Positions 27,168 to 37,404 of a stretch of DNA of 64,000 nucleotides are shown here, one piece after another. This stretch comes from Flavobacterium eburneipallidum (GTDB lineage: Bacteria > Bacteroidota > Bacteroidia > Flavobacteriales > Flavobacteriaceae): the NCBI RefSeq assembly GCF_027111355.2, contig NZ_CP114291.2, positions 744,001 to 808,000 on the forward strand, in the 5' to 3' direction. Under the pieces are notes generated by a model that was not told where the DNA came from, searched no databases, and was given only the letters and a program-made list of their open reading frames with translations. Position 1 is the first letter of the stretch, and the number at the start of each line of letters is the position of its first letter. Both the position numbers and the translations under genes were made by a program.

Positions 27168-30100
27168 ATGAAATTAGCAGAAATATCCATAAAACGTCCC
27201 TCGTTAATCATTGTATTGTTTACAATATTAACCCTTGGTGGACTCTTCAGTTACAGCCAATTGGGCTATGAATTGATCCCGAAATTCGAACAAAACGTAA
27301 TTACTATTTCGACTGTTTATCCTGGAGCTTCTCCGAGTGAGGTAGAAAATACAGTTACCAAAAAAATTGAAGATGCGATTGCATCCTTGGAAAATATCAA
27401 AAAAATTGATTCTAAATCCTACGAAAGTTTGTCTATCGTATCGATTTCATTGACATCCAATGCAAAAGTAGATTATTCGATGAATGATGCGCAACGAAAA
27501 ATCAATGCCATTATTAGTGATTTACCAGATGATGCTAAAACACCCGCATTGACTAAATTCTCTTTGAGTGATTTGCCAATTATGACCATTGGTGCCAATG
27601 CCAAAATGGACGAAGCTACCTTTTATGACTTGATTGACAAAAAAGTAGCACCCGTTTTATCTCGTGTTCCTGGTGTGGCCGAAGTAAGGATAGTAGGTGG
27701 TCAGGAACGTGAAATTCAAGTCAATCTGGATGCTGTAAAAATGCAAGGTTACGGATTATCAATTCCGCAAGTGCAACAAACCATTTTGACTTCCAACTTG
27801 GATTTTCCAACAGGAAATATCCAAACGCGTGATCAAAAAATCTTGATTCGTTTGGCAGGAAAATACAAGAGTGTTGAAGAATTAAGAAATTTGGTAGTTT
27901 CTTCTCAAAACGGAATTCAAATTCGTTTGGGCGAAATTGCAGATGTTCAAGATGCTCAAAAAATTGCTGAAAAAATTTCGAGAGTAGATCAAAAAAGTGC
28001 TATTATCTTGCAAGTTGTTAAGCAGTCGGATGCCAATGCGGTTGCGGTAAGTGAAGAGTTGGTTAAAACCATCAACAACTTAAAAGTAGATTATGAAAAA
28101 AATGCTTTACAATTAGAAATTGCCAAAGACAGTACAGTTTATACGCTGGAAGCTGCGGATTCTGTAATCCACGATTTGTTGATTGCCGTAATTTTGGTGG
28201 CTTTTGTAATGTTGTTCTTCTTGCACAGTATTCGTAACTCTTTGATTGTAATGGTGTCGATTCCGGTATCGTTAATTGCGACTTTTATTGGGATTTATTT
28301 GATGGGTTACACCCTGAACTTAATGAGTTTATTGGGATTGTCGCTTGTGGTAGGTATCTTGGTTGATGATGCTATTGTGGTATTAGAAAACATTTACAGA
28401 CACATGGAAATGGGCAAAAGTCGTGTTCGTGCCGCTTATGACGGAACTGCCGAAATTGGCGGAACCGTTACTTCTATTACATTAGTAATTGTGGTGGTAT
28501 TTTTACCTATTGCGATGAGTTCAGGATTAGTGTCTAATATTATCACGCAGTTTTGTGTTACGGTAATTATCTCTACCTTATTTTCATTATTGGCTTCGTT
28601 TACGATTATTCCGTGGTTGTCTTCTCGTTTTGGAAAATTAGAACACATTGAAGGTAAAAACTGGTTCGGAAAATCGATTCTTGGATTCGAAAAAATATTA
28701 ACTCGCTTTACCAACTGGGTTACTGGATTGTTAAACTGGTGTTTGGATCATTATATTAAAACCATTGTTGTTGTAGTGGTATTGTTTTTCGCTTCTACAG
28801 TAGGTTTGATGGCAGGAGGTTTTATCGGAGGAGAATTCTTTGCGGCATCAGATAGTGGAGAGTTTTTAGTGCAAATCGAAATGCCAAAAGACGCTTCGTT
28901 AGAACAAACCAACTTTATGACTCAAAAAGCCGAAGCGTATTTGAAAGGACAAGAGTATGTAGAAAGTCAAATTACGACCATTGGTCAAACCAGTGAAGGA
29001 TTTGGCGCATCGCAAGCTACGGCTTACAAAGCCGAGATTGATGTAAAGATGATTGAACAATCCGAACGTTCGGACGACGCTTCTGTTTATGCAGCCAAAA
29101 TCAAACGTAAATTAGAAAAAGTATTGGTGGGAGCCAAAATCAAAACAGTTCCAGTAGGTATTTTAGGAACTGCCGAGGATGCTACTCTTGGATTAATTGT
29201 TACAGGACCATCAACAGAGGAAGCAATGAAATTTGCCAAATTAGCCGAAGCCGAATTGCGTACTATTCCAGGAACTACCGAAATCCGATTGAGTGTCGAG
29301 GACGGAAATCCTGAAGTAAACGTGCAGGTAGATAGAGATAAAATGGCAGCATTAGGATTAAGCCTTCAAACGGTGGGTATGACTATGCAAACGGCTTATA
29401 GCGGTAATACTGACGGAAAGTTCAGAGCAGGTGAATACGAGTACGACATCAATATCAAATACAATGCTTTTGACAGAAAAAGTATTGCCGATGTTAGTAA
29501 TTTGATTTTCATAAACAATGCTGGACAACAAATTAAATTAGCACAATTTGCTACTATTTCTGAAGGTTCTGGGCCTAGCCAATTAGAGCGTAGAGACAAA
29601 ACGGCTTCGGTAACGGTTAAAGGACAAAACGTTGGGGTTGCCTCTGGAACCATTGTAGCGCTATGGCAAGAGAAATTAGACAAACTAAAAAAACCTGCAG
29701 GAGTCAATTACATTTGGGGTGGTGACCAAGAAAATCAAAGCGAGGGTTTTGGTACTTTGGGAATTGCATTATTAGCCGCTATTATCTTGGTTTACCTGGT
29801 AATGGTTGGATTGTATGATAGTTTTGTTCACCCGTTTGTGGTATTGTTTGCCATTCCGCTTTCGTTTATTGGAGCGATGATGGCTTTGGCTTTGACTAAT
29901 AACACCTTGAATATATTTACCATTTTGGGAATCATTATGTTGATTGGTCTTGTGTGTAAAAATGCGATTATGTTAGTGGATTATACCAACCAACGAAGAG
30001 CAGCTGGCGAATCGATCAGAACGGCGTTAATTCAAGCGAATCACGCTCGTTTGCGTCCGATTTTGATGACGACAATTGCCATGGTATTTGGTATGTTCCC

Positions 30101-30344
30101 AATAGCATTGGCATCAGGAGCTGGAGCCGAATGGAAAAATGGTTTGGCTTGGGTAATTATTGGTGGATTAATTTCTTCTTTATTCTTAACCCTGATTATC
30201 GTTCCTGTGATTTATGAAATCATGGAAAAAATAATCGCTAAATTCTCTAAAGGCGAAAAAGTAGATTACGAAGCCGAAATGGTTGCCGATTATGAACACA
30301 CCGAATTAAGCGAAGACGGTTTCAACCCGAAACATACGGTTTAA
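27168..30344 (+). CDS. Efflux RND transporter permease (AcrB/MexB superfamily)
   Basis: 1058 residues, the RND length. It starts MKLAEISIKRPSLIIVLFTILTLGGLFSY and shows the twelve-helix duplicate layout with two large periplasmic parts. Characteristic segments: YPGASPSEVENTVTKKIEDAI, LVDDAIVVLENIYRHME with the acidic pair in helix 4, and in the second half the GLVCKNAIMLVDYTNQRR block. It is a proton-driven exporter of drugs or envelope compounds (HAE1-like). It completes the TetR-TolC-MFP-RND operon and is followed by a terminator. Confidence 0.97.
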   Translation: MKLAEISIKRPSLIIVLFTILTLGGLFSYSQLGYELIPKFEQNVITISTVYPGASPSEVENTVTKKIEDAIASLENIKKIDSKSYESLSIVSISLTSNAKVDYSMNDAQRKINAIISDLPDDAKTPALTKFSLSDLPIMTIGANAKMDEATFYDLIDKKVAPVLSRVPGVAEVRIVGGQEREIQVNLDAVKMQGYGLSIPQVQQTILTSNLDFPTGNIQTRDQKILIRLAGKYKSVEELRNLVVSSQNGIQIRLGEIADVQDAQKIAEKISRVDQKSAIILQVVKQSDANAVAVSEELVKTINNLKVDYEKNALQLEIAKDSTVYTLEAADSVIHDLLIAVILVAFVMLFFLHSIRNSLIVMVSIPVSLIATFIGIYLMGYTLNLMSLLGLSLVVGILVDDAIVVLENIYRHMEMGKSRVRAAYDGTAEIGGTVTSITLVIVVVFLPIAMSSGLVSNIITQFCVTVIISTLFSLLASFTIIPWLSSRFGKLEHIEGKNWFGKSILGFEKILTRFTNWVTGLLNWCLDHYIKTIVVVVVLFFASTVGLMAGGFIGGEFFAASDSGEFLVQIEMPKDASLEQTNFMTQKAEAYLKGQEYVESQITTIGQTSEGFGASQATAYKAEIDVKMIEQSERSDDASVYAAKIKRKLEKVLVGAKIKTVPVGILGTAEDATLGLIVTGPSTEEAMKFAKLAEAELRTIPGTTEIRLSVEDGNPEVNVQVDRDKMAALGLSLQTVGMTMQTAYSGNTDGKFRAGEYEYDINIKYNAFDRKSIADVSNLIFINNAGQQIKLAQFATISEGSGPSQLERRDKTASVTVKGQNVGVASGTIVALWQEKLDKLKKPAGVNYIWGGDQENQSEGFGTLGIALLAAIILVYLVMVGLYDSFVHPFVVLFAIPLSFIGAMMALALTNNTLNIFTILGIIMLIGLVCKNAIMLVDYTNQRRAAGESIRTALIQANHARLRPILMTTIAMVFGMFPIALASGAGAEWKNGLAWVIIGGLISSLFLTLIIVPVIYEIMEKIIAKFSKGEKVDYEAEMVADYEHTELSEDGFNPKHTV

Positions 30345-30364
30345 TTTCTGAATTTTAATATTTT

Positions 30365-30403
30365 AAAAAAACCACCTGAAATTTGATTTTGGGTGGTTTT
30401 TTG
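30365..30403 (+). terminator. Terminator of the efflux operon
   Basis: AAAAAACCACC and GGTGGTTTTTT form an 11-bp stem around 16 nt, with further T residues. Confidence 0.9.
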
Positions 30404-30488
30404 TTTTTTGTAAGAATGGAATGATTATATTAGCGGAGAATATAAAGTGAAATAAACCTTCGCCAATCTACCTAATTTTGGGCGGATT

Positions 30489-30567
30489 GTCGCTACTTTG
30501 TAGCGAGTATATATAAGTTTGGCAAAAGAAAAAAAGGCCAAATTTAGATAATACTTAGGCCTTTTTT
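30489..30567 (+). promoter_or_regulatory. Hairpin, -7-like box and terminator ahead of the nuclease-STAND gene
   Basis: In order: a small hairpin TCGCTAC-TTT-GTAGCGA (30489-30505), TAAGTTTG at 30514-30521 matching the -7 consensus, and a terminator-like stem AAAAAGGCC (30531-30539) / GGCCTTTTTT (30558-30567). The gene starts 69 nt further on. If the box is a promoter, transcription must pass or escape this terminator. The remainder of 30404-30636 holds no convincing gene. Confidence 0.5.
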
Positions 30568-30636
30568 CCCTTCGCCAAGCGGACTGACGTTGGTGGCAAT
30601 TGTAAGAAAAATATCCGGTAAACAAAATCCTTGTAA

Positions 30637-33294
30637 ATGAAAACAGAAATTAAAATCATACTTGAGGAAGGCTCTTCAAATAAAGCTAAAGGAAATTGTT
30701 TTGAAACGCTTATTAGAAATTTACTTGCAATTCATCAATATGATATTAGAGGAAATATAAACTTTTCAGGAATGGAAATTGACTTAATTGCTAATCATAA
30801 ACATAAAGACGAAATTCTTTATGTAGAATGTAAAGCAAAAGAAAAAGTTAGTTCAGATGAATTAAGTAAATTCTGTTTTAACGTTGAATTTCAAGAAGCT
30901 GATTATGGATATTTTTTTAGAACACAAGAATTAGAATATCAAGCTGGTGCTCTATTAAGTGAAATCAGAAAAAAAGCTAAATATAAAAATTTAACTTTTT
31001 TTGAACCCTCTGATATAATTCAAATGCTCTCCGATGCTAATAAAATTTTCGAACCAATTTCAAAGTTAAATTCATTTACAATTTCTAAAAAAATACTAGC
31101 AGTTACTCATTTTGGTGATTTTTTAATTTATTTAGTAGATGAAGCAAATTTATTTCCAACAAAATTTATTGTTGTTAATGCTAATAATAATTCGTTAGAA
31201 GTAAAAAAAGAAACTGTAGAATTAATCGTAAAGCGAATAGATGAGTTAAGTAAGTTAGAAGCAATAACAAATTTTATTGAACCTATAAAAAAAAATGAAT
31301 TAATAAAAAAAGAGGTTGTTGTTGAAACTATATCAGAAGTTCAAGAAAGTGAATATTGGTATGATTATTTACCTGCTTCTTCTACAAAAAATCATTTTGT
31401 TGGGAGAGATTTTATTAGAACACAAATTTTAGATTTTTTCAAAGAAGTTCAAACTGACAAAACACATAAGAGAATCTTTTACTTAAATGGAAAATCAGGT
31501 TGGGGAAAAAGTTCTTTATTACTTGAAATTAAATCACGTTGCGAAAATAAATATTATAAAAATAAATTTTTCACACTTGCCATCGACACAAGAAGTGCAT
31601 TGTCTGATAATTTTGTTGCTTTATCATTTGAAAAGCTTATCAATAAAGCAATAGAAAAAAAATTTATTAAAAAGACTATTTTCAGCAAGCAAGTCAAATT
31701 TACTTCAAATTTAGATTTACTATCGTCAGAATCAATAGAAGATTTATTTCAATCACTAAAAGCTGAAAATAAATATCTAGTACTTATTTTTGACCAATTT
31801 GAAGACGTTTTTAGAAAGCAAGATTTATTTAAATCCTTTTACAAGTTCTTAAGTGATGTCACAGATAAAAAACCAAATTTAATCGTTGGTTTTTCTTGGA
31901 AATCTGAATTTTTCATACCAAATGATGACCCAGCATATTATTATTGGCAACAAGCTAAAGAACAATCAAGAGAATTTATAATTGGAGATTTTGGTGAAAA
32001 GGAAATTGATGGTATAATTAAACAATTAGAACAATCCATAGGAAAACTTGATAAAGATATAAAAAACAGGATTAAAGAAAGCTCACAAGGTTTACCTTGG
32101 CTTACTAAAAAATTATGTATTCATATTTTTGAGCAAATTCAAGGAGGACTAAAAAAAGATAAACTTATTGAATCAAATCTTAATATTATAGATTTATTTG
32201 AAAAGGATAAAGAAAGAATAGAACCTGAAGAATTGAATGGTTTAAAATTAATTGCTCAAAAAGCATATGAAGGAGCATTTTTTGAAATTTCTGAAGTTGG
32301 AGAATCAATTGAAAGCAAAATAATAGATTCATTGTTAAATAAGCGTTTAATAATTAAATCAGGTGCTAATTATAATATTTATTGGGACATATTTAGAGAT
32401 TATTTAGTTACAAACATTATTCCTACTATTGGTGAAAGTTATTTGATAAGACAACGTGTAACATTATGTTTAGAAGTTTTTTTACTTTTCAAAGATTCCG
32501 CAGAACCACAAACTATTGAAACAATTCTAAAAAAACATATAAAAAGTATAGGAAAAACGAGTCTTGAAAATATTTTAATAGAATTAAGAAATTTTGGTCT
32601 AATTAAAAAAAATGATGATTTTTATAGTGTTGCAAAAAAAGAAATAGAAATCACAGAAAATGGTTTTATTACATTCATTACAAATAAATTCCAAAATTAC
32701 ACACCTTATTTAGAATTAAAGAAAATGAATTTAAACTCAATCACTAAAGATGATATAACAACAGTTTTAAAATCAATTTTCAAACAAGATTTTAAAGACA
32801 AAACCTGGGAAGCTTATTCATTAAATCTGATTAGTTGGTTTTTACAATCTAAATTAGATATTAAACCAAAAATTAAGGAACCACAAAAAGGACGAAGTAC
32901 AAAAACACAACTATCTTTAAAATCCGATAATGTAATTCCTAGAAGTTCGTTAAAAGAAATTTCAAATGTTATAAAATTAATGAAAGAAGCAGATTATTCC
33001 ATTAATAGTAAATATTATAGAGATTTACTGTTACTTAATATAATTGACGAAAGCAAAAATATTACCGCTATTGGTTCTCAAATTATTGAATTAAAGGATG
33101 AAAATTTAAAAATCTCGCTTATAAAACAATTAAATAAGAACAAAAAAATAATTGAATTACAAAAGATTTTGAAATTAAAACCAAAAATACAAGCTAAAGA
33201 ATTAGTAAAAAATTTACCAACTGATTTTTTTGACGGTAAAGCAGAAAGTTCAAAAATTATTTACGCATCAGTAGCCTTATCTTGGGTTAAATAG
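30637..33294 (+). CDS. PD-(D/E)XK nuclease fused to a STAND-type NTPase, candidate defence protein
   Basis: 885 residues. Residues about 15-110 form an Mrr-like PD-(D/E)XK domain: GNCFETLIRNLL, then GMEIDLIA (Asp49) and YVECKAK (Glu64-x-Lys66), then YGYFFRTQEL. From about 253 an NTPase begins with FVGRD. Walker A is NGKSGWGKSS (284-293), Walker B is LVLIFDQFED (381-390), and the GLP motif of STAND/NACHT ATPases is in SQGLPWLTKKL. A winged-helix-like region and a 300-residue helical C-terminus of unknown type follow. This nuclease-switch-sensor order is that of Avs-like and related anti-phage proteins, acting as an oligomerising cytoplasmic nuclease. It is strikingly A/T-rich compared with the efflux genes and stands alone, both signs of transfer. 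Not matched by me to a named system. Confidence 0.8.
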   Translation: MKTEIKIILEEGSSNKAKGNCFETLIRNLLAIHQYDIRGNINFSGMEIDLIANHKHKDEILYVECKAKEKVSSDELSKFCFNVEFQEADYGYFFRTQELEYQAGALLSEIRKKAKYKNLTFFEPSDIIQMLSDANKIFEPISKLNSFTISKKILAVTHFGDFLIYLVDEANLFPTKFIVVNANNNSLEVKKETVELIVKRIDELSKLEAITNFIEPIKKNELIKKEVVVETISEVQESEYWYDYLPASSTKNHFVGRDFIRTQILDFFKEVQTDKTHKRIFYLNGKSGWGKSSLLLEIKSRCENKYYKNKFFTLAIDTRSALSDNFVALSFEKLINKAIEKKFIKKTIFSKQVKFTSNLDLLSSESIEDLFQSLKAENKYLVLIFDQFEDVFRKQDLFKSFYKFLSDVTDKKPNLIVGFSWKSEFFIPNDDPAYYYWQQAKEQSREFIIGDFGEKEIDGIIKQLEQSIGKLDKDIKNRIKESSQGLPWLTKKLCIHIFEQIQGGLKKDKLIESNLNIIDLFEKDKERIEPEELNGLKLIAQKAYEGAFFEISEVGESIESKIIDSLLNKRLIIKSGANYNIYWDIFRDYLVTNIIPTIGESYLIRQRVTLCLEVFLLFKDSAEPQTIETILKKHIKSIGKTSLENILIELRNFGLIKKNDDFYSVAKKEIEITENGFITFITNKFQNYTPYLELKKMNLNSITKDDITTVLKSIFKQDFKDKTWEAYSLNLISWFLQSKLDIKPKIKEPQKGRSTKTQLSLKSDNVIPRSSLKEISNVIKLMKEADYSINSKYYRDLLLLNIIDESKNITAIGSQIIELKDENLKISLIKQLNKNKKIIELQKILKLKPKIQAKELVKNLPTDFFDGKAESSKIIYASVALSWVK

Positions 33295-33307
33295 AAACAA
33301 CAGCCAC

Positions 33308-33359
33308 CAACAGTTAGAGTTTCGTTGCGTGCGCAGCACGAACAATGAAACTCCTGTTG
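33308..33359. repeat. Structured hairpin after the nuclease-STAND gene
   Basis: Nested complementary blocks: CAACAG (33308-33313)/CTGTTG, GAGTTTC/GAAACTC, and an inner CGTGC-GCA-GCACG, with a 3-nt bulge on one side. It is more G/C-rich than the flanks. The block GCCACCAAC just before it (33303-33311) is the exact complement of GTTGGTGGC at about 30589-30597, upstream of the gene. Confidence 0.6.
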
Positions 33360-33422
33360 AACGGAACCGATTACACGTCCGTCAACCTATGTACTTATCG
33401 TAAAAGTTTTAGAGAGAATAGC

Positions 33423-33456
33423 AAGAGGATTTATATTCCTCTTTTTTTTTTTTTTT
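33423..33456 (+). terminator. Terminator with a 15-nt T-run
   Basis: AAGAGGA and TCCTCTT pair around 7 nt, followed by an unbroken T-run. It is the likely end of the nuclease-STAND transcript. The rest of 33295-33786 holds hairpins but no gene I can support. Confidence 0.8.
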
Positions 33457-33572
33457 GAGTAATTTCTAGAGGTTTTATCGTGTTTTCCATCACTTTTGGG
33501 CATACTATCCCTTACCCCAGCTCCTCGAAGAGTTCCCTAAAAGATAAATATTCATAAAGCTACGGTTGTGCT

Positions 33573-33596
33573 GGGCGAATGTCTCCGACTTCGCCC
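33573..33596. repeat. G/C-rich hairpin GGGCGAA / TTCGCCC
   Basis: A 7-bp stem with a 10-nt loop in otherwise A/T-rich non-coding DNA. Similar GCGAAG-containing hairpin sequence is inserted in copy 2 of the nested palindrome (around 34925-34955). Confidence 0.5.
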
Positions 33597-33786
33597 GCTA
33601 AACCTCTTTTGGAAACACTACTGGTTTTGGCTTAATATAAAGCTGGTTTTGTATTTTGGATGATTTGGCAAATTCGAAAATAGTACTTAATTTAGTTTCA
33701 AACCTTTGTACTAGCGAATGTTATCTAGAACAACGTTGCTATTACAAATAATAACAACTTGAAAAATTAACCAAAAAGCTACTATT

Positions 33787-34245
33787 ATGAAAAAGTTACA
33801 ATTCAAAGTCAGTATAGATGCAACTGCAAATAAGATCTATGATTTTATGCTGGGCATTAGCAATAAATCCACTTATGAGCAATGGACAGCTTTGTTTAAT
33901 CCTACATCTACATTTGAGGGAAGTTGGGACAAGGGAAATAAAATCCTATTTATTGGAGTAGATGAGAAAGGAGAAAAAGGAGGTATGGTTTCCAGAATAG
34001 TGGATAACATTCCCAATCAATTTGTTTCTATTCAACATTATGGGCTTTTTAAAGCGGATAAGGAAATAACAGAAGGCCCCGAAGTAGAAAAATGGGCAAA
34101 CGGATTTGAAAACTATACTTTCGAAGAAAACAATGGTACCACCACCGTTACTGTTGATTTAGATACCACCCAAGATTTTGTAGATTACATGAACCAGTCC
34201 TACCCAAAAGCACTCGACAAATTGAAAGAAATTTGTGAAAAATGA
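33787..34245 (+). CDS. SRPBCC/START-like ligand-binding protein
   Basis: 152 residues with the AHSA1/SRPBCC pattern: it opens with KKLQFKVSIDATANKIYDFML, then YEQWTALFNPTSTFEGSWDKGNKILFIG, MVSRIVDNIPNQFVSIQHYG, and ends in a long helix (YMNQSYPKALDKLKEICEK). Such proteins bind small hydrophobic ligands; the ligand is unknown. No signal peptide. Single gene, 71 nt before the lipoprotein gene. Confidence 0.88.
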   Translation: MKKLQFKVSIDATANKIYDFMLGISNKSTYEQWTALFNPTSTFEGSWDKGNKILFIGVDEKGEKGGMVSRIVDNIPNQFVSIQHYGLFKADKEITEGPEVEKWANGFENYTFEENNGTTTVTVDLDTTQDFVDYMNQSYPKALDKLKEICEK

Positions 34246-35049: not shown

Positions 35050-35064
35050 ATAGTAATTAATTTC

Positions 35065-35192
35065 TATAAAAACATAATTATTTTGGAATTAATTCCAATA
35101 AAAACATAATTATTTTGGAATTAATTCCAATAAAAACATAATTATTTTGGAATTTAATCCAATAAAAACATAATTATTTTGGAATTAAAATT
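35065..35192. repeat. Four tandem 32-bp repeats upstream of a DUF4143 ATPase gene
   Basis: Four head-to-tail units of 32 bp (starting 35065, 35097, 35129, 35161), nearly identical. Each contains ACATAATTATTTTGG and, across the unit junction, the palindrome TTGGAATTAATTCCAA (altered in the last two). There are no spacers, so this is not CRISPR. The array ends 37 nt before the ATPase ATG. Confidence 0.92.
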
Positions 35193-35229: not shown

Positions 35230-36354
35230 ATGGTAAGAAGAGAACAAACCCATTATGCCAAAGCAAGATTATTCAAAGGAAAAGCACTTTTGGTTTTTGG
35301 ACCAAGGCAGGTGGGGAAAACTACTTTTGTACAAAACCTAATTGCCGACTTAAATAAAAAAACACTTTTCCTGAACGGAGACGAGTCGGATGTGTTGGTT
35401 TTATTCGAAAGTCCAAACGTTACGAAACTGAAGAACATCATTGGCGACAATGAAATTCTAGTGATTGACGAAGCACAGCGCATCACCAACATTGGCATTG
35501 TACTCAAAATCATTGTAGATCAAATTAAATCGGTGCAAGTTATTGCTACTGGTTCGTCAAGTTTTGAATTGGCAAATAAACTCAACGAACCTTTGACAGG
35601 AAGAAAATACGAAATGTTTTTGTATCCTCTTGCCTTTTCAGAAATGGTAAACCATAACGGATTACTAGAAGAAAAAAGAGCTTTGGAACAACGCCTTATC
35701 TTCGGCAATTATCCTGAAATAATTACGAATCCGATAGATGCGAAAGAGCACATCAAATTGATTGCCAACAGTTATTTATACAAGGATTTATTTCTGCTGG
35801 ATCAAATTTCGAAACCTGTTTTACTTCAAAAAATCGTCAAAGCATTAGCCTTGCAAATAGGAAGCGAAGTCAATTATAACGAATTGAGCAAATTGATTCA
35901 AATAGACAATAAAACGGTTGAAAAATATATTGATTTGCTCGAAAAAGCTTTTGTGATTTTTAAACTTCCTGCGTTGTCTAACAATGTTCGAAATGAAATC
36001 AAAAAAGGCAAAAAAATCTATTTTTATGACAACGGAATTATCAATGCGGTAACTGGAAATTTCAATCCTTTGACTCAAAGAACGGATATTGGTAGTTTGT
36101 GGGAGAATTATATCATAAGCGAGCGCATCAAATATTTGAATATTCAGCAGCAGGAAAGTGAGTTTTATTTTTGGAGAACCACACAGCAACAAGAAATAGA
36201 TTATATAGAGAAAAATGAAGACCAGATTTTGGCCTGTGAAATAAAATGGAACGCTAAATCGAAGTATAAAATTCCTGTCACTTTTTCGACAAATTATGCC
36301 AATGTAACCTCCCAAATAGTTTCGCCCGAAAATTATGAGGAGTTTTTGTTGTAA
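35230..36354 (+). CDS. AAA ATPase with DUF4143 C-terminal domain
   Basis: 374 residues. AAA_14 domain: Walker A GPRQVGKTT (24-32), Walker B ILVIDEAQRI, sensor TGSSSFELAN, then RKYEMFLYPLAFSEM. The C-terminal DUF4143 part has ENYIISERIKYL and FYFWRTTQQQEIDYIEKNEDQILACEIKWNAKSKYK, which contains a PD-(D/E)XK-like D-Y ... E-I-K triad common in this family. Its role is unknown; members are abundant, variable and often near mobile DNA. It is preceded by the 32-bp tandem array. Confidence 0.92.
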   Translation: MVRREQTHYAKARLFKGKALLVFGPRQVGKTTFVQNLIADLNKKTLFLNGDESDVLVLFESPNVTKLKNIIGDNEILVIDEAQRITNIGIVLKIIVDQIKSVQVIATGSSSFELANKLNEPLTGRKYEMFLYPLAFSEMVNHNGLLEEKRALEQRLIFGNYPEIITNPIDAKEHIKLIANSYLYKDLFLLDQISKPVLLQKIVKALALQIGSEVNYNELSKLIQIDNKTVEKYIDLLEKAFVIFKLPALSNNVRNEIKKGKKIYFYDNGIINAVTGNFNPLTQRTDIGSLWENYIISERIKYLNIQQQESEFYFWRTTQQQEIDYIEKNEDQILACEIKWNAKSKYKIPVTFSTNYANVTSQIVSPENYEEFLL

Positions 36355-36631: not shown

Positions 36632-37404
36632 CTATCTCGAATTTATTTTTTTTAGGATGGTATAATTACTGTTTTTACTTCCAAATTTTTCAAAATCGTA
36701 TAAATCAATTATCAAATTCATTTTCTCTACCAAAGCATTGTAAAACCTGCTTTCTTGGAGAAGAATATAGCGTTGTAAAGCCCACATCAAATAATCAATA
36801 ATACTTAACTCCGGTGTAATATCGCTTGGAATTGTTCTACAGTCATAATGAATTGCTATTGGTTTTTTCCTTTTTTTATTGTCTCTTTCAATTGCTTTTT
36901 CGATAGCTTCCTTTAATTTTTCTCCTGAATTACCAGCTCTGGTTGATAATAAAATTTGATAAAAAACGTCTTCTCTGTTTAATCTATCCTTTAACAAATG
37001 ATAGACCATATCAAAATAAAATTCACTTTCAGATTTATTATGCTTTTTGTGAAATAAATCCAAACGTTTTCTTCCAATAACAATATAAGATTTAAAATTT
37101 TCCATTTTTCTGATTAGCTCAATAAATTTTGTTCTAATTTCTGGTTGATCATTTCTAGCGTGAAAATACCAACCTTTAGGATTTGAAACACATTTTAAAG
37201 AGTTGTATAATGTGTCATTTTTAATGTCTTCTTGAAGACTTTTAATAGAATTGTATATTTCTTTTTTGTCTTCTAAAACTATCAATCCTAGTAACAATAA
37301 CGGTTGAAAGCCATCTGTTCCAACAAGTAGTTTGTTTTTTTGGCATAAAAAGAAGCATCACCGCTTTCGTCAATAAACAAATACACTTTCTTTTTATCCT
37401 CCAT
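36632..37404 (-). pseudogene. DUF3800 protein with a -1 frameshift in an A7 run
   Basis: The start ATG (37402-37404) gives MEDKKKVYLFIDESGD, the DUF3800 signature with the catalytic-type Asp-Glu. The frame is lost in a run of seven A on the coding strand (plus strand 37335-37341); one more A would join it to NKLLVGTDGFQP and the remaining frame to 36632. The second part keeps other family features: a HYDCRT segment and LSIIDYLMWALQRY. Whole length would be about 257 residues. DUF3800 proteins have an RNase H-like fold. It begins 1 nt after the dnaE stop. True decay, phase variation or a base-calling error are all possible. Confidence 0.75.

Follow-up and report, generated by a model that had tools for sequence, protein, structure and literature searches.

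We report here on a gene of Flavobacterium eburneipallidum that occupies positions 30637-33294 of a 64,000-nucleotide stretch of contig NZ_CP114291.2 (positions 744,001 to 808,000; henceforth the window, whose numbering and + strand apply to all features below). The gene probably encodes a single-protein, Avs-like nuclease activated by infection and carried as an integron-type cassette. This reading is based on features visible in the sequence: the Mrr-type catalytic site and the STAND-type NTPase are both intact, and the boundaries are of the cassette type. Near-identical or related copies of the gene reside at different chromosomal places.

Domain architecture of the protein

The open reading frame (ORF), recognized as an Mrr-nSTAND gene from its Pfam matches and homologs, begins with ATG and specifies 885 amino acids. 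A preliminary description of the DNA had proposed an Mrr-like PD-(D/E)XK nuclease domain at the N-terminus. Indeed, Pfam Mrr_cat matches residues 17-109 (30685-30963) over its cut-off (E 1.7e-6), and the proposed catalytic residues D49, E64 and K66, together with E23 and C65, are identical in all 25 proteins of our alignment. The proposed P-loop NTPase was likewise borne out by nSTAND1, which matches residues 250-463 (31384-32025) over its cut-off (E 5e-7), AAA_16 remaining narrowly under its own. FVGRD (254-258), Walker A (GKSGWGKSS, 285-293), Walker B with its paired acidic residue (384-390, including FDQFED at 385-390) and GLP (485-487) are all present. Within the NTPase part none of the 25 proteins departs from G290-K291-S292, D386, E389, P487 or W488, and the same holds for W583 and R587 of the first winged-helix region; the leucine of GLP varies within the family. 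Given this identity throughout the aligned proteins, the motifs are real and conserved.

For the alignment the query was joined by 24 homologs, which come from Bacteroidota, Ignavibacteriae, Chloroflexi, Cloacimonadota, Clostridia, Eremiobacterota, Acinetobacter, Burkholderia, one cyanobacterium and one alphaproteobacterium; the genome's own copy (L001), a copy truncated by its contig (L007) and three with apparent frame breaks (L009, L015, L022) were left out. Since 489 of the 7995 protein-database candidates scored were homologs at E<=1e-3, the architecture is not a product of chance; 118 of the 120 homologs listed span 100% of the query.

The remaining regions are delimited largely by prediction. 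Between nuclease and NTPase lies a beta-containing region (residues 116-215; 30982-31281) with predicted strands at 148-157, 160-168 and 176-181. Predicted helices and a hairpin at 530-592 mark the STAND helical lid and first winged helix (residues 426-595; 31912-32421), and residues 600-668 (32434-32640), with three helices and a beta hairpin, have the predicted secondary structure of a second winged helix. The helical C-terminus that follows (32641-33291), set apart by per-domain identities, is the putative sensor; the whole part beyond the first winged helix comprises about 290 residues.

That this C-terminus is long, helical and unlike sensors made of tetratricopeptide repeats (TPR) had been suggested before, and our searches agree: no TPR-like repeat family was found in it by Pfam at E<=1, and when it was folded separately (predicted local distance difference test, pLDDT, 85.9), Foldseek returned nothing from the PDB at E<=0.001. 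Its weak matches include winged-helix regulators such as PcaR (72 columns, 3.1 A, E 0.18). In most homologs residues 766-885 are the least conserved part. In L012-L014, L016-L021, L023 and L024, identity to the window protein is 39-64% across the nuclease and nucleotide-binding parts and falls to 13-29% over residues 766-885, and such divergence beside conserved nuclease and NTPase parts fits the expectation for a sensor. Three homologs, L018, L023 and L024, are longer (1034, 1133 and 1134 residues), which suggests that the sensor end has been extended or swapped in them; the extra C-terminal repeats of L023 and L024 are presumably related to helicase-associated domains. Judged by its sequence, then, the protein is a nuclease-STAND with a short, predicted non-TPR sensor, a variant on a known architecture.

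Comparison with Avs and with restriction systems

AlphaFold2, supplied with 35 sequences, modelled the protein with a pLDDT of 76.4 and a predicted template modelling score (pTM) of 0.38, values that make the domain folds usable but not their mutual arrangement. Among PDB entries Foldseek placed first a structure of Avs4 in complex with a phage portal (8dgf_B; E 1.2e-8, probability 1.00, TM-score 0.16); most of the next matches were ATPases of the Orc/Cdc6 and RuvB types. VIA-align supported the ATPase region only, its 50 rows mostly spanning residues 224-594, and a sequence search of the PDB gave no meaningful match.

Avs4 (AVAST type 4), whose effector is of the Mrr type, thus resembles the window protein in its order of nuclease, STAND ATPase and C-terminal sensor, and provides its best fold match in the PDB. 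It differs in length (a 1534-residue chain as opposed to 885 residues), and the window protein is without a recognized TPR array. Of the features that define Avs/AVAST proteins, we found the N-terminal nuclease effector (Mrr_cat) and the central STAND NTPase (nSTAND1); the C-terminal TPR-like repeat sensor and a match to the PADLOC Avs models were missing, and we therefore do not place the protein within Avs. Nuclease effectors are assigned to Avs1-4 in a passage of PMC12931631. RADAR RdrA and other AAA+/STAND proteins differ in that our protein carries an Mrr nuclease and has no identified partner gene.

The Mrr_cat domain also invites another explanation, in which the protein would be a modification-dependent restriction enzyme of a type IV-like, Mrr/McrBC-like kind: its winged helices would bind modified or foreign DNA and the NTPase would license or move the nuclease, with no sensor for a phage protein. 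The predicted second winged helix, the name 'restriction endonuclease' borne by several relatives in their source databases, and the 42-48% identity retained by residues 766-885 in L002-L006 speak for it. Yet nSTAND1 scores over its cut-off and the fold resembles Avs4, which points to a signalling STAND switch rather than to McrB, and in 13 of the 24 homologs residues 766-885 are only 12-24% identical to the query. We consider the restriction explanation rather unlikely.

Evidence for an integron-type cassette

The ends of the gene obey the core-pair rule of integron cassettes exactly. A 9-nt left core, GTTGGTGGC (30589-30597), is the reverse complement of the inverse core GCCACCAAC (33303-33311) that closes the cassette. 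The inverse core opens into a short, atypical attC-like hairpin (33308-33359; fold z-score -4.17), which none of 200 shuffled sequences equalled in folding. Two covariance models of attC were built, a first (R1) on nine sites and a second (R2) on 36. A degenerate second attC lies further downstream at 33609-33741 (27.0 bits with R2, E 0.023), and a weak attC-like remnant precedes the cassette at 30505-30595 (14.9 bits, E 0.042 in 5.3 kb with filters off).

Comparison with other genomes places the left core at a break in homology. In a Flavobacterium metagenome-assembled genome (MAG), locus L007, the encoded protein is 99% identical over 442 residues up to the contig end, and the DNA homology (95.9%) begins at window position 30587, 2 bp ahead of the core; BLASTN found no further match between this locus and the window outside the cassette homology. 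L007 consists of head-to-tail ORFs on one strand, with 8 attC-like hairpins of 133-140 nt between them, and each cassette has a GTT core at its start and the complement at the beginning of its own closing hairpin. One nearby cassette of this locus (L007:902-2413) holds a Drt4-type defence reverse transcriptase (PADLOC E 1.1e-193).

The same chromosomal place holds something else in a relative. The G074 chromosome matches the window up to 30467, past a gene for an RND efflux protein, and then continues with a different cassette, whose first bases are GTTAGGC and whose far end is a clear attC (58.1 bits with the first model, built without it, and 78.6 bits with the second, which had it as a training site). 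Part of this attC aligns with window positions 33626-33726, inside the degenerate window attC. In G005 about 400 bp separate the RND flank (30419) from the repeat that precedes a DUF4143 gene (35055), and the cassette interval is therefore absent there. The match stops at 30334-30431 in the other 18 of 20 relatives, where no attC was called. The homolog in Flavobacterium sp. CF136, 60% identical, stands as a solitary cassette that has a 9-nt core pair and a canonical attC (106 bits; used in training the models) and is flanked by two genes resembling ordinary chromosomal ones. A longer homolog in a Ferruginibacter MAG (L024) sits inside an array with 10 attC sites, which were detected already by the first model, untrained on them.

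Several observations weigh against the cassette assignment. The closing hairpin of the window is short and atypical, and neither attC model called it on its own strand. A scan for cores gave 3 hits in the window, both strands included, against 14 in a reversed-sequence control. With one mismatch allowed, the window and 3 of 27 homolog loci passed the core test, as did 9 of 407 control ORFs (L007 was too short to be counted and L001 was skipped); at L002, L010, L012 and L013 looser pairings are apparent on inspection, and these are leads only. Core pairing by itself is thus not significant, and carriage on cassettes is not universal among the homologs. On these grounds one could hold that the core complementarity and the hairpins are coincidental and that the gene arrived by ordinary recombination. 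This we deem very improbable, since the homology breaks within 2 bp of the core, the L007 array follows the core rule, and G074 holds another cassette at the same place. It is the core at the homology breakpoint and the arrays, rather than the core pairing alone, that lend weight to the case for a cassette. No exact direct repeats of at least 10 bases were found between 30001-30640 and 33291-33790.

The gene therefore looks like an integron-type cassette, one that apparently moves between Flavobacterium genomes. Its strong A/T bias, previously remarked upon, was confirmed (24.6% G+C versus 35.2% in the rest of the window). Isolation and hairpin-rich flanks had been taken as signs of horizontal transfer; both fit, and cassette ends and attC remnants account for them, so that the gene appears to be more than an isolated A/T-rich one. 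The window and CF136 copies stand alone amid ordinary-looking chromosomal genes, as insertion of a single cassette would yield.

Beyond the cassette, window positions 35230-36354 encode an AAA_14/DUF4143 protein (PADLOC PDC-S01, E 5.2e-160), preceded by short tandem repeats resembling TAAAAACATAATTATTTTGGAATT at about 35055-35190; a DUF4143 homolog of about 84% DNA identity lies near the RND gene in G005 (L049). Positions 36632-37297 match PADLOC DUF3800_VII (E 4e-19).

attC sites and arrays in Bacteroidota

Across the 36 sites of the second model, 91.0% of pairs are standard and 17 of 21 pairs show changes on both sides, i.e. covariation. None of 500 shuffles attained any of the five measures used, a result favoured by the fact that the alignment had been fitted to the model. 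The core-pair rule was examined in six arrays, where 3 of 48 cassettes could not be scored: with at most one mismatch in 8, a cassette's own pair fitted in 43 of 45 cases, compared with 103 of 370 wrong pairs.

Using the first model at E<=1e-4, we found attC-like sites in 50 of the 61 same-genus genomes. The second model at E<=1e-6, with 16 candidates scored per genome, detected sites in 79 of 198 genomes of the phylum, representing 49 of 102 genera, and in none of six host genomes from other phyla. Single genomes contained 6 sites (Ignavibacteriae), 28 (Flavobacterium) and 14 (Ferruginibacter); the latter two genomes had supplied training sites. At E<=0.001, sixteen selected stretches of seven genomes together held 137 sites.

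The content of the arrays includes a type IIG restriction enzyme, a DpdF-like helicase and Dnd-like genes. In G068 (204500-244300; L105 and L106) an array of attC sites and cassettes about 36 kb long is headed by an integrase and holds a Dnd-like gene group (DndD-like, DndE/HerA-like). The first protein after this integrase has a GAGAS motif and looks SIR2-like; it matched nothing in Pfam or PADLOC at E<=1e-5. Directly behind the STAND homolog of L024, within the same attC interval, are AbiEi, AbiEii and a TOTE primase-helicase (L024:13481-18076). The cassette system looks widespread in Flavobacterium, and its integrase looks unusual.

An Xer-like recombinase as the probable integrase of the arrays

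The genome of F. eburneipallidum itself contains a small integron-like array (G000 2614955-2617934; L086:14456-17435), in which a 342-codon open frame for a tyrosine recombinase is followed, about 840 bp further on, by two attC sites on the same strand. An identical layout of integrase and attC occurs in the genome of L007. Homologs of the recombinase at E<=1e-60 were found at 31 places in 30 of 61 genomes. Seven places were left out, six with less than 1 kb of contig downstream and one (G003) where the match ends at residue 315, presumably at the contig end. At 20 of the 24 testable places an attC follows downstream on the same strand within 5 kb; the sites of G000, G025 and G028 had belonged to the attC training set. 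None was found within 5 kb at G062, G081, G022 and G032, the last with only about 1.1 kb searchable. In contrast, none of seven other tyrosine-recombinase loci, taken as controls from two genomes, precedes an attC.

The integrase stays under the cut-off of TIGR02249 (IntI) both in its own genome and in that of L007, and in the former the match is split into 2-177 and 240-313, with positions 178-239 skipped. No genome of the 61 in the genus scored over the IntI cut-off, but since none of 14 control genomes did either, this is no proof that IntI is absent. GLR and HxLRH are 92-93 residues apart in five of seven integrases, the motif search leaving the other two unmatched; in IntI1 this spacing is larger. 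Six of the seven end in SPFDDL or SPLDNL, similar to the SPLD-type end of IntI proteins, and the one from F. eburneipallidum ends in NPFDM.

These arrays thus share with the canonical integron (IntI, attI, attC) covarying attC-like folds, the core-pair rule and a tyrosine recombinase at their head, and differ from it in a TIGR02249 match that is under the cut-off and split around a missing segment. An excerpt of PMC8618304 counts Bacteroidota among the phyla with integrons, and part of PMC2426708 reports intI genes from the Bacteroidetes/Chlorobi group. According to a passage of PMC9024848, only In0 elements had been recorded earlier in Bacteroidetes, and then one complete integron, in Salinibacter ruber. 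In the open-access literature, preprints excluded, we found no description of Flavobacterium integrons with an Xer-like integrase. We give an even chance to the broader proposition that Flavobacterium and many other Bacteroidota run a chromosomal integron class of their own, in which a same-direction, Xer-like recombinase without the IntI-specific insert stands at the head of arrays that can reach dozens of cassettes, and that these arrays also store anti-phage cassettes, among them a compact nuclease-STAND class whose sensor is of a new kind. If so, folding-based cassette exchange would be independent of the IntI-specific insert.

Distribution and defence context

The gene is rare and patchy. 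Homologs were located at 22 loci in named genomes; at E<=1e-3 none was present in the 36 same-genus genomes other than its own, and 1 of 59 relatives had one, while at E<=1e-60 only 2 of 395 phylum genomes gave a match, the own genome included. On account of this patchiness we rejected a housekeeping role. We also rejected a phage-borne origin, as viral contigs (searched with two peptide patterns) and a phage collection contained no relative.

Homologs occur on cassettes and on plasmids, a mode of carriage compatible with a protein that acts in conflicts with plasmids or other cassettes, or that stabilizes its array by addiction, instead of fighting phage. Toxin-antitoxin genes nearby in one plasmid and the AbiE genes of L024 would agree with such a function, whereas no partner-like ORF among those of at least 80 residues directly adjoins the gene in the window; we judge it improbable. 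The plasmid, from Fuscovulum (L029), has its distant homolog amid an AAA ATPase/restriction endonuclease pair, Fic, SIR2 and toxin-antitoxin genes.

A role in phage defence is likely on the evidence of the sequence, despite several results that count against it. No PADLOC family matches the protein at E<=1, and no NCBIfam model over its cut-off names it; the TM-score of the Avs4 match and the pTM of the full model are both low. In the survey of gene neighbourhoods and cassettes, no excess of defence-model hits was shown for 124 neighbours or 140 cassette ORFs over 57 control ORFs. The neighbours were those of 17 loci (158 ORFs called in 18 loci; E<=1e-20), and their matches, among 25 of 40 families listed, include methyltransferases, one DRT-type reverse transcriptase, a homing endonuclease and Cas1. 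For cassettes, 140 of 184 called ORFs were searched at E<=1e-10 (25 of 155 matching families listed), and for controls 57 of 104 at E<=1e-10, with 5 families matched. The preliminary proposal of a nuclease-STAND defence gene is supported by the layout, the invariant catalytic residues, the patchiness and the non-TPR C-terminus. Homologs are not confined to housekeeping contexts, as some of their neighbours are defence-type genes.

Anti-phage genes in integron cassettes have been described (Darracq 2025, Getz 2025 and Kieffer 2025, as cited in a passage of PMC12444791, two of them also in one of PMC13092281), and the former passage states that anti-phage systems are encoded by 20% of those Vibrio cholerae cassettes for which no function is predicted. 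Our case is alike in having a defence-like gene in an attC-ended cassette, but the host belongs to Bacteroidota, the integrase is Xer-like and on the cassette strand, and single cassettes occur as orphans.

Proposed mechanism and significance

We envisage that at rest the NTPase and C-terminus keep the nuclease inactive. A ligand derived from infection would bind the winged-helix/helical C-terminus and trigger an ATP-dependent assembly that pairs the Mrr domains, which would then cut double-stranded DNA of the phage and probably also of the host, and the infection would stop. The action would be like that of Avs-type nuclease-STAND proteins, with a much shorter, non-TPR sensor. The gene may spread as a whole cassette by recombination at attC sites, with the Xer-like integrase at the head of Flavobacterium arrays as the probable catalyst, and single cassettes would also end up alone in the chromosome.

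In conclusion, the vehicle, likely an integron-type cassette, is more surprising than the protein itself. If our interpretation is right, cassette exchange is widespread in a large environmental phylum for which one survey, in the passage of PMC9024848 cited above, lists few complete integrons, and the integrase of such a system falls below the cut-off of a standard integron model. The need for the IntI-specific insert in recombination of folded attC sites would become testable, and a pool of uncharacterised cassettes, some with defence-type genes, would be opened. Furthermore, the compact nuclease-STAND family with its short, non-TPR sensor may offer a route to new phage triggers.

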